64,000 bases of DNA, from contig NZ_CP029190.1 in the NCBI RefSeq assembly GCF_008642295.1, positions 5,129,501 to 5,193,500 on the forward strand, read 5' to 3'. A model generated the notes under the pieces. That model did no database searches. It was not told where the DNA came from and saw only the letters and a list, made by a program, of their open reading frames with translations. The translations under genes were made by a program, and so were the position numbers. Source of the stretch: Streptomyces venezuelae. GTDB lineage: Bacteria > Actinomycetota > Actinomycetes > Streptomycetales > Streptomycetaceae. Positions 20,969-23,642 of the stretch are shown here, in pieces (position 1 is the stretch's first letter; each line of letters begins with the position of its first letter).

Positions 20969-22600
20969 CTAGAGGGCGGACCGCCAGGTCAGCGTGGTGC
21001 CCCTGGTGCCCGACTCGGTCCGGCCGTCGTCCGCGACCGTCAGCCGGACGGCCGAGGGGTCCGCGTCCACCTCCACCTCCACCGAGCTGACCCCGGCCCG
21101 CCGGTGCGCCGCGGCCAGTGCGCTCCGCAGGGCCGCCAGCAGGTCCCCGGCCACCGGGTCCGTCACCAGCGTGTCCACCGCCCCCGCGAACCGCACCGAG
21201 GGCTGGAAGCCGAGCAGCGCCCCCGCCCCGCCGGTCTCCCGCAGGACCCGCCCCCGGAACGTGGCCGGCGCGTCGGCCGGCGGCTGCTGGAGCGCGAAGA
21301 TGGCGGTGCGCACGTCCTGGATGGTGGAGTCCAGCTCGTCCACCGCCCGGCCCAGCTCCTCGCCGACCGTGTCCCCGGCCGGAGCGGCCGAGGACCGCCG
21401 CCGGGTGCTCTCCAGCATCATCTCGGTCGCGAACAGCCGCTGGACCACCAGGTCGTGGAGGTCCCGGGCGATCCGGTCGCGGTCCTCGTAGACCGCCAGC
21501 TGCTCCCGGTCGTGCTGGGCGTCCGCCAGGACCAGCGCCAGCGCCGCCTGGGAGGCGAACTGCGAGGCCAGCAGCCGGTCCACCGCATCGTACGGGCGTC
21601 CCCCGCGCTCCCGCGGCAGCGCCAGCGTGCCGATCAGCTGTCCGCCGCTCTGCAGCGGCAGCATCATGCTGGGGCCGAATCGTTCCCGCACATGTGTGGT
21701 CATCCGCGGATCGGTCGCCGAGTCCTCGATGAAGACGGGTTCGCCGCCCAGCAGTTGTTCCAGCACCGCGCTCCCGGGGGCGATGGCGGTGCCGACCAGG
21801 TCCCCGGGGTCGCCATGGGTGGAGGCGGCCACGATTTCCATACCGCCCTCCGGGGTCGGCTGGAGCACCACCCCGGCCGCCGCATCGGCCAGCAGCCGGG
21901 CCCGTTCCGCCACGCACATCAGCGCATCCGCCGCCGGCCGTCCGGTCAGCAGGGCGGTGGTGATGGCCGCCGCGCCCTCGATCCAGTGCTCCCGGCGCCG
22001 GGCGGTGTCGTACAGCCGGGCGTTGCCGATCGCTATGCCGGCCTGGGAGGCGAGGACCCGCAGCAGTGCCAGGTCCTCGTCGGTGAACGGCCCGCCGCCC
22101 TGCTTGTCGGCCAGGTAGAGGTTGCCGAAGACATCGGTGTGGACCCGGATCGGCACTCCGACGAAGGATTCCATCGCGGGGTGGCCGGGCGGGAAGCCCA
22201 CCGAGCGCGGGTCCTCGCTGATCCGGTCCACCCGCAGCGGGCGCGGATCGGTGACCAGGGTGCCCGGCAGGCCGGAGCGGCCGTCCGGCAGGTGCGGGAT
22301 CCTCGCCCGCTCCTCCTCGGTCAGGCCGGCCGTGAACAGTGCGGTCAGCCCGCCGCGCTCGGGGTCCACCACCCCCAGCGCGGCGTACCGGGCCCCGCTC
22401 AGCTCGGCCGCGGAGTCCACGAGGTGCTGGAGGGTGGTGTGCAGTTCGCGTTCCGAACCGACACCGAGTACGGCCTCCAGCAGCACGGGCAGGCGGGGCG
22501 GCCCGGCGGGCCGCCCCGGTGCCGAGGCCTCGCCGGCCGGGCCACTCGTGCGGTTTCCGCCGTCGGCGGTGCCGGTGCCGCCTTCCTCCGGCATGGTCAT
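20969..22600 (-). CDS. GAF-domain sensor histidine kinase with degenerate ATPase domain
   Basis: This 543-residue protein has two GAF domains (about 40-190 and 205-360) and a HisKA_3 dimerisation helix with the phospho-acceptor His in RIARDLHD (H382), as in DosS/DevS oxygen and redox sensors. The catalytic domain is abnormal. The N-box Asn region reads RSALAAAHRRA, so the Mg-binding Asn is missing. After DDG (about 524-526) roughly 30 residues that normally hold the ATP lid and the G2 box (GGxGLxNL) are absent, and the protein closes with TTLTWRSAL. It is therefore predicted not to bind ATP normally. The stop of the Mbl gene lies 4 bases before its ATG, so the pair is an operon. The ATG at 22594 is an equal alternative start. 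Confidence 0.85.
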   Translation of the reverse strand: MTMPEEGGTGTADGGNRTSGPAGEASAPGRPAGPPRLPVLLEAVLGVGSERELHTTLQHLVDSAAELSGARYAALGVVDPERGGLTALFTAGLTEEERARIPHLPDGRSGLPGTLVTDPRPLRVDRISEDPRSVGFPPGHPAMESFVGVPIRVHTDVFGNLYLADKQGGGPFTDEDLALLRVLASQAGIAIGNARLYDTARRREHWIEGAAAITTALLTGRPAADALMCVAERARLLADAAAGVVLQPTPEGGMEIVAASTHGDPGDLVGTAIAPGSAVLEQLLGGEPVFIEDSATDPRMTTHVRERFGPSMMLPLQSGGQLIGTLALPRERGGRPYDAVDRLLASQFASQAALALVLADAQHDREQLAVYEDRDRIARDLHDLVVQRLFATEMMLESTRRRSSAAPAGDTVGEELGRAVDELDSTIQDVRTAIFALQQPPADAPATFRGRVLRETGGAGALLGFQPSVRFAGAVDTLVTDPVAGDLLAALRSALAAAHRRAGVSSVEVEVDADPSAVRLTVADDGRTESGTRGTTLTWRSAL

Positions 22601-22604
22601 CCGG

Positions 22605-23642
22605 TCATTCGGACAGCGGGTTGAGGACCATCGGGGCGATCTTTCCTTCCAGCATGGCGCCCAGACCCAGGACGGCACACACATCGGGCCGTTCCGCGAT
22701 GGCCACCGGCATCCCGGTCGCGTCGCGCAGCATCTGGTCCAGCCCCGGCAGCAGCGCGCTGCCGCCCACCATCATGATTCCCCGGTCCGTCAGGTCGGCG
22801 ACCAGGTCCGGCGGGCAGTCGCGCAGCACCTTGCCGATGCCGTCCAGGACCGCGGTCAGCGGGGTGTGGATGGCGTCCCGGACCGCCGCCGTGTCCACAT
22901 GCACCGAGCGGGCCAGGCCGGTGGCCACGTCCCGGCCGTGGATCAGGGTGGACGCGGGGCCCTCGTCGGTGATGCCGTTGCCGTGCAGGGCCAGTTGGAG
23001 CGGCCGTACGGCCTGGCTGGGCAGCATCAGCTCGTGGGCGTGCCGCAGGTGCTGGACCACCGCGTGGTCGATGGCCTCGCCGCCGACCGGTACCCGTTCC
23101 GCGGTCACGATGGAGCCGAGGGAGAGCACCGCCACCTGGGTGGCGGCGGCCCCGCACACCATGATCATCGTCGCGGTGGGCTGTTCCACGGGCAGGCCGC
23201 AGCCGACGGCCGCCGCGATCAGGGTGTCGACCAGTTCGACCCGGCGGGCGCCGAGTCCGACCAGGGTCTCCACCGCAGCCCGCTGGGCCAGCGGATCGGC
23301 GTCGTGCGGGGTGCAGGCGGCGGCGCGCAGCCGGGGCTTGCGGCGCAGGGCGCGCCGGAGCTTCTCGCCCAGCAGGTGGCGCAGCATCCGCTGGGCCATC
23401 TCGATGTCGACGACGGTGCCGCCCGAGACGGGGCGGACCACCCGGATGTAGTCGGGGGTGCGGCCGGTCATCCGCTCGGCGAAGGTGCCGACGGCGATGA
23501 GTGCGCCGGTACGTGTGTTGACCGCGGCGACGCTGGGCTCGTCGACGACCAGGCCGGCGCCCTTGACGTACACACGGGTGCGGGCTGCCCCCAGGTCGAC
23601 GCCGACGTGGCAGCGGCGCAGCTGCTCAAGACTGAAGGTCAC
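22605..23642 (-). CDS. mbl: MreB-like actin homologue (Mbl) with altered ATP site
   Basis: This 345-residue actin-fold protein resembles Streptomyces Mbl, a divergent MreB paralogue that contributes to spore-wall synthesis together with MreB. Phosphate-1 is GVDLGAARTRVY (14-25; MreB usually has DLGTANT). The phosphate-2 region reads VCGAAATQVAVLSLGSIV (162-179), where MreB has a DIGGGTT motif, so the Asp and the Gly-Gly-Gly-Thr turn are lost. The Glu that activates the nucleophilic water in MreB (IEEP) is replaced (VELVDTL). The adenosine-side GGSALLPGLD is kept. ATP hydrolysis is thus doubtful. The GTG at 23642 follows GGGAGG. The same frame stays open far upstream but is a shadow. It is followed by the GAF kinase gene. 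Confidence 0.87.
   Translation of the reverse strand: MTFSLEQLRRCHVGVDLGAARTRVYVKGAGLVVDEPSVAAVNTRTGALIAVGTFAERMTGRTPDYIRVVRPVSGGTVVDIEMAQRMLRHLLGEKLRRALRRKPRLRAAACTPHDADPLAQRAAVETLVGLGARRVELVDTLIAAAVGCGLPVEQPTATMIMVCGAAATQVAVLSLGSIVTAERVPVGGEAIDHAVVQHLRHAHELMLPSQAVRPLQLALHGNGITDEGPASTLIHGRDVATGLARSVHVDTAAVRDAIHTPLTAVLDGIGKVLRDCPPDLVADLTDRGIMMVGGSALLPGLDQMLRDATGMPVAIAERPDVCAVLGLGAMLEGKIAPMVLNPLSE

Follow-up and report, generated by a model that had tools for sequence, protein, structure and literature searches.

Do two neighbouring genes whose products have both lost residues for handling ATP form one functional unit, or have they degenerated side by side for separate reasons? The question is raised by a window of 64,000 nucleotides from Streptomyces venezuelae (assembly GCF_008642295.1, contig NZ_CP029190.1, positions 5,129,501 to 5,193,500; positions given below are those of the window unless a contig is named). 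On its minus strand an mbl-like gene (22605..23642, GTG start, 345 amino acids) is followed by a gene for a kinase of the GAF-GAF-HisKA_3 layout (20969..22600, 543 amino acids, with the Pfam profiles GAF and HisKA_3 above cut-off), and only four bases (22601..22604) separate the stop codon of the first from the start codon of the second. The genome is a single contig of 7.5 Mb, and the named loci nearest to it include those of S. lavendulae and S. goshikiensis. A preliminary description, whose coordinates, strand and gap were correct, suggested that this pair is a pseudo-actin and a pseudo-kinase with a joint function. The evidence gathered here points elsewhere: Mbl shows its degeneracy whether or not the kinase gene is present, and the presence of the kinase gene follows that of a distant, intact paralogue. 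A regulatory dependence on that paralogue is therefore better supported than a co-evolved unit of two degenerate proteins.

Mbl belongs to the MreB/Mbl actin family by a full-length profile match (PF06723, 358 bits, residues 11-332), and it stays under the cut-offs of the NCBI MreB subfamilies (288 against 293 bits and 255 against 366 bits). Its phosphate-2 loop (residues 162-168, 23139..23159) reads VCGAAAT in place of the DIGGGTT of MreB, a motif that the two other MreB proteins of the same genome display together with a normal glutamate motif. In an alignment to Caulobacter MreB, Thr140 (23223..23225) falls on the glutamate of LIDEP, which we take to be E140, the activating residue. Both losses had been noticed in the single sequence, and both are general. 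Among the matches listed, a Mbl orthologue occurs in 120 of the 121 genomes of a genus draw, our own included, the exception (G102, an assembly of 1,420 contigs) having a match of MreB level only. Across the 119 loci fetched besides our own, residue 162 is Val (108), Ala (4), Met (3), Gln (3) or Leu (1) and never Asp (0/119), and residue 140 in the 118 orthologues with a letter there is Thr (113), Ser (3), Gly (1) or Ala (1) and never Glu (0/118). Asp162 is also absent from 23/23 copies of a family draw and from 80/80 named loci, and the activating glutamate likewise from 23/23 family copies, it being understood that the genus draw, the family draw and the named loci may overlap. One part of the described loop does not extend to the lineage: the Ala at the position of Thr167 is real in the window, but this position holds Thr in 53, Ala in 53 and Ser in 9 of the 119 orthologues.

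How far back the losses go can be gauged from the wider sampling. In the family draw a Mbl copy at an expect value (E) <= 1e-85 is present in 66/121 genomes and 10/17 genera, and 23 copies were read from 20 genomes, one of them of the same genus and the rest spread over nine other genera; all 23 show the same degeneracy. Fifteen genomes stand for the remaining families of the order, and among the matches listed they reach MreB level only (E between 1e-72 and 1e-76 in 13 and 1e-44 in one, the last having no match). The mbl gene itself is under strong purifying selection, with a ratio of nonsynonymous to synonymous substitution rates (dN/dS) of about 0.07-0.10. The loss of the ATP-hydrolysis residues is old and fixed, and identical losses in every orthologue rule out a sequencing error or frameshift. 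The predicted structure of Mbl (34 close orthologues; predicted local distance difference test, pLDDT, of 43.6) is of too low confidence to support any argument on fold or claim of polymerisation.

The family offers some further variations on this protein. Residue 163 (in the region of 23157-23159), Ile in MreB, is Cys in 119/119 Streptomyces orthologues and Ser or another residue in some other genera. Three genomes of another genus of the family (g7; L162, L163, L164) carry the usual Mbl plus a tandem pair of further Mbl-like genes, in one copy of which the phosphate-2 loop is yet more degenerate (LANADST or LANSDST). A third MreB, full-length and with its motifs intact, is encoded in our own genome (L003, G000:C1:4999436-5000401, minus strand), some 3 kb away from the main mreB (G000:C1:5003469-5004419, plus strand); most Streptomyces of the draw have no more than two MreB-family matches among those listed.

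The kinase comprises two GAF domains (GAF1, residues 51-200, 22001..22450, of the DosS GAF-A type with 48% identity to it; GAF2, residues 205-356, 21533..21988), a dimerisation and histidine phosphotransfer (DHp) domain (residues 366-450, 21251..21505, with a HisKA_3 match of 49 bits) and the remnant of an ATP-binding (CA) domain (residues 451-543, 20972..21250). The phospho-acceptor His382 is kept in RDLHDL, and with the adjoining DxxxQ motif, Asp383-Gln387, it occupies 21440..21457. In the CA remnant the N-box Asn has become Ala497, and only 17 residues follow DDG as against 47 in the intact paralogue of the same genome, a net 30 fewer, the G2 stretch SGLRNL having gone with them. This paralogue (G000:C1:3672721-3674433) is 58% identical to the window kinase, with the same domain order, and is encoded 1.5 Mb from the mbl locus, behind cydC (634 bits, the cut-off being 329); we call it the cyd kinase. 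Its HATPase_c domain scores above cut-off, whereas a Pfam profile search of the window kinase gave no HATPase_c match at E<=1. The preliminary description had counted the ATP lid among the deleted parts. The net deletion stands, with the G2 box in it, but DosS and DosT kinases lack a classical ATP lid as well (PMC4082495), so that its absence is normal for the family and not a telling loss. Judged by the sequences compared, what tells is the loss of the N-box Asn and of the SGLRNL stretch.

Here again the losses are conserved, no intact orthologue of either protein having been found in the alignments. Mbl-side kinases covering the relevant sites in two samples have the N-box Asn in 0/61 and 0/71 and the SGLxN motif in 0/63 and 0/76, and both features are present in 41/41 relatives encoded elsewhere, 40 of which are placed by the tree among the cyd kinases and one among other DosS-like kinases. 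The histidine has fared quite differently from the ATP site: His382 is found in 62/62 and 73/73 copies, Asp383 is invariant, and Gln387 is retained in 62/62 and 72/73, together 134/135. In sequence, D383 and Q387 conform to the DxxxQ phosphatase motif of HisKA_3 proteins, needed for the phosphatase activity of NarX and highly conserved in HisKA_3 (PMC3510030). The statement that both proteins had lost ATP chemistry is thus right as to the residues that handle ATP, gone in both proteins, whose genes are under purifying selection, and too strong for a kinase that keeps its histidine and DxxxQ: it may still perform phosphoryl chemistry without binding ATP.

Constraint is distributed over the domains in a corresponding manner. 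In the 21 genomes with both kinases, median dN/dS values for the mbl-side and cyd-side proteins are 0.51 and 0.18 in GAF1, 0.21 and 0.23 in GAF2, 0.17 and 0.08 in DHp, and 0.42 and 0.18 in CA; among close relatives of the window the mbl-side values fall to 0.09 in GAF2 and 0.13 in DHp. Selection has therefore been relaxed in GAF1 and CA and not over the whole gene, as it would be in a pseudogene. DHp residues 372-394 are alike on the two sides save at two positions (21+21 sequences). To go by its sequence, GAF1 of the window would have the GAF-A fold with the heme-ligand equivalents His140 and Tyr162, which are kept in about half of the orthologues (36 and 33 of 63). The structure prediction (pLDDT 82.5 overall) models the CA remnant as a compact fold, at about 89-95 over most of it; when the model was compared with known structures, GAF domains dominated the match list and the CA remnant was hardly probed.

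Turning to where the gene is found, a near-complete kinase lies behind mbl in 60/119 fetched loci, all 60 on the strand of mbl (an in-frame stop interrupts L103, and a contig end truncates L106), and kinase pieces lie there in three more (L052, L070, L140). Conservation of the gene pair thus holds for strand and adjacency but extends to only these 60 of the 119. The 56 Mbl orthologues without a downstream kinase match are all just as degenerate (L149 lacks downstream sequence and L154 has only 1.3 kb of it). The mbl-side kinase is confined to one clade of 94 Streptomyces, with repeated losses. The 25 other, more divergent Streptomyces, L149 again being without downstream sequence, have no such gene, and none was seen at 19 loci of nine genera other than Streptomyces; Mbl is degenerate in all of these. 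On the tree all mbl-side kinases fall into a single clade (100/100) that has the cyd kinases as its sister group, and because the grouping of the latter is weakly supported (94/51) the date of the duplication is left loose. The gene beyond the kinase, of Lrp type by eye, is present at 21/60 kinase loci, 0/31 kinase-free loci of the clade and 0/25 others, loci that are too short for any conclusion.

What the mbl-side kinase does follow is the cyd kinase. In the genus draw the latter was called, among the matches listed, from its location within 12 kb of cydA in 75/83 genomes and from high identity in eight; seven of these eight are on contigs without a cydA match, and in G012 the gene lies 5.7 Mb from the listed cydA. 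Within the clade of 94, again among the matches listed, 60 genomes have both kinases, 31 have neither, two have a broken mbl-side copy with a cyd kinase (which in G119 matches over its second half only) and one has a remnant without a cyd kinase; our own genome, additional to these counts, has both. In neither of the two samples was a near-complete mbl-side copy found, among the matches listed, in a genome without an intact cyd kinase, and because of this the pseudo-kinase seems dependent on it. Two other causes of joint loss were considered and rejected. Cytochrome bd has not been lost, since cydA is present in 121/121 genomes among the matches listed, and the kinase is therefore lost without the oxidase. 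General richness in kinases does not explain the pattern either: a further DosS-like kinase, counted from match numbers among those listed, occurs in 42/61 genomes with both kinases and 23/31 with neither.

A second sample came from an order draw, with 94 further Streptomyces genomes among the matches listed, 74 of them not of the divergent kind. G252 was put among the 74 by its kinase, which is of the mbl-side type, its mbl not being found among the matches listed; the cyd kinase was called here from identity and distance from mbl only. The mbl-side kinase is present in 38/74 (37 beside mbl, plus G252), and all 38 have the cyd kinase, which was picked up in 37 by the main search and in G214 by a separate reading. 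The other 36 comprise 33 with neither, an absence that rests on E <= 1e-105 and that was rechecked on the mbl side in 30 (no fragment within 1.5 kb) and on the cyd side in G302 only. G302, closely related to the window genome (mbl 97%), shows neither kinase, on a contig that ends 1.9 kb behind mbl. There remain three exceptions. In G299 the mbl-side copy ends at a contig end; G300 (L300, L313) has a broken mbl-side copy, and the match to its cyd kinase falls into two overlapping pieces that lie in different frames; and G280 (L301, L312) has a frameshift in its cyd kinase and shows no mbl-side copy. G280 and G300 are apparently genomes caught mid-loss.

Kinship alone might produce such an association, and it was taken into account on a tree of mbl DNA with 181 rows, to which 60 of the 74 new genomes (30 with both kinases, 30 with neither) were added along with G280, G299 and G300. 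Eight genomes with both and three with neither were not added, and no discordant genome was omitted. G299 was coded as having both kinases, G300 as cyd kinase only, and G280, with its frameshift, as lacking the cyd kinase (coded otherwise, it becomes one more cyd-kinase-only genome). Pairs on non-overlapping, well-supported paths gave 12 independent contrasts, of which, in most pairings, 11 are concordant, none is opposed and one is without a difference in the cyd kinase (median p 0.001). The control trait, the further DosS-like kinases, has no association on the tree.

We put these observations together as follows. The Streptomycetaceae paralogue of MreB would have lost the Asp and Glu of ATP hydrolysis before the sampled members of the family diverged, and Mbl most likely follows MreB in building the spore wall, as a partner uncoupled from nucleotide. 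The gene behind it would encode a kinase-dead relative of the kinase from the cytochrome bd operon, probably devoid of an ATP site and retaining GAF2 and a complete DHp domain with His382 and DxxxQ. An invariant phospho-acceptor and phosphatase motif without an ATP site fit a role in the pathway of the intact kinase, most likely either as phosphatase of a response regulator common to both or as a partner of that kinase, trans-phosphorylated or heterodimeric. We give the reading as a whole, of two separate degenerations side by side with the pseudo-kinase acting in the pathway of the cyd kinase, a probability of about 0.55. Mbl of S. coelicolor is an MreB paralogue with a role in spore-wall synthesis (Heichlinger et al., 2011, as presented in PMC4282423), and since MreB and Mbl act in spore development in Streptomyces (PMC4282423), the position of the kinase gene suggests that it is expressed while the spore wall forms; lying behind mbl probably gives it an expression linked to sporulation. 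A more specific scenario can be put forward tentatively: the cyd kinase, of a hypoxia/redox type, would have been copied into the operon of the pseudo-actin, and the copy, deprived of its ATP site, would have turned into a developmental brake linking the state of respiration to spore maturation, made with Mbl in sporulation, dephosphorylating or taking phosphate from the parent pathway, and lost whenever the parent is lost.

Several facts weigh against the reading just given. Outside the clade, and among the matches listed, 20/25 genomes have the cyd kinase only and 5/25 neither; being often alone in divergent lineages, the cyd kinase does not need the mbl-side copy. The first tree of 118 rows, taken by itself, gives six pairs with five concordant (p 0.06). 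The mbl-side gene is broken in L052, L070, L103, L140, L179 and L313, which makes it dispensable, and its unvarying place next to mbl is a hint of some link to Mbl. No cognate response regulator was recognised, by eye, in either 1.5 kb flank of two further DosS-like kinases of our own genome (L035, L036, which are 42-43% identical to the window kinase). The kinase-core structures of DosS and DosT are reported to lack the lid and the conserved elements of the N, F and G boxes (PMC4082495), though the sequence of DosT shows the N-box Asn and SGLRNL, as does our own intact paralogue; because these boxes are reported absent from structures while present in sequence, the death of the kinase is something that we infer. 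We likewise infer the biochemical activity of the pseudo-kinase, the shared response regulator, the role in timing and the ATP-free role of Mbl, whereas the lost motifs, the distribution of constraint, the monophyly of the mbl-side kinases and their co-occurrence with the cyd kinase are shown by the data.

Within the preferred reading, the variant in which the pseudo-kinase is chiefly a heterodimer partner of the cyd kinase, with His382 phosphorylated in trans, and not mainly a phosphatase, draws on the near identity of residues 372-394, the invariance of His382 and the failure to find a near-complete copy without the intact kinase. As the DHp domain has diverged overall, with a dN/dS above that of the paralogue, and a phosphatase role accounts for the same facts, we consider the variant possible but rather unlikely. 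That pseudo-actin and pseudo-kinase act directly on spore-wall synthesis as one structural or ligand-sensing unit, as first proposed, would agree with the short gap, the common strand, the adjacency in all 60 near-complete copies and the ATP residues lost from both. It is made improbable by a degeneracy of Mbl that is earlier than, and independent of, the kinase gene, by a kinase presence that tracks the cyd kinase, and by the loose constraint on GAF1, the presumed ligand domain, in which the heme ligands persist in only about half of the copies.

More improbable still is that the kinase gene is a functionless duplicate decaying beside a stable gene. Decay is seen, to be sure, in the six loci listed above (L179 and, in addition, L244 coming from the named loci and L052, L070, L140 and L103 from the genus draw), where the gene is broken or missing, and GAF1 and CA evolve loosely. 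Yet GAF2 and DHp are under clear purifying selection, the histidine block is invariant, and a gene without function would not follow the cyd kinase. As for Mbl, it could bind nucleotide in a remodelled pocket and use the binding without hydrolysis, given that Asp16 (118/118), Gly164 (119/119), Thr168 (118/119) and the adenosine-site GG (115-118/118) are kept; the further disappearance of Gly165 in all orthologues and of Gly166 in 112/119, on top of Asp162 and Glu140 lost in all, renders this doubtful.

If two separate degenerations and a tie to the cyd kinase are indeed what the locus records, the consequences reach beyond it. Streptomyces has many orphan sensor kinases; for few of them is the partner known, and comparative genomics would here name one. 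The likely S. coelicolor counterpart, SCO2452, tabulated in one paper as an orphan classic kinase, would be a kinase-dead regulator that belongs with one particular intact kinase. Mbl of S. coelicolor is presumably SCO2451, and the window gene, by gene order, probably its orthologue; in the literature searched we found no statement that the ATP-hydrolysis residues are missing there. Our literature search returned nothing on the loss of Mbl motifs or on the co-occurrence of the kinases, in a coverage outside which the primary Mbl paper lies, so that the motif loss may be reported there. The Mbl of spore-wall work lacks these residues in the orthologues read, and models of a second ATP-driven MreB need checking.

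Set beside known systems, Mbl of the window is homologous over its full length to MreB of Caulobacter and of the Geobacillus and Thermotoga structures, from which it differs by the replaced phosphate-2 Asp and activating Glu. The window kinase shares its layout with DosS/DevS and DosT of Mycobacterium, including a GAF-A domain with equivalents of His149 and Tyr171; unlike them it has a CA domain without N-box Asn and G2, and heme ligands in only about half of its orthologues. The cyd kinase of the same genome has a nearly identical DHp block and differs by its intact N-box, G2 and HATPase_c and by its site behind cydC. By gene order we take it to be of the SCO3948 type. SCO3948 is the kinase most like OsdK, and cross-talk between them is described as remaining to be established (PMC5069765). 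Regulators of other bacteria provide functional analogues: BumS acts only as a phosphatase, on BumR (PMC11796366), DivL, a pseudo-kinase, regulates CckA (PMC9430884), and RocA is reported to act on CovS. All three regulate without being kinases, as the window kinase is proposed to do. To our knowledge none of them combines these domains, is connected with cytochrome bd or neighbours an actin gene. By analogy, BumS fits as a precedent for a phosphatase-only role, and DivL for a pseudo-kinase that steers a real kinase.

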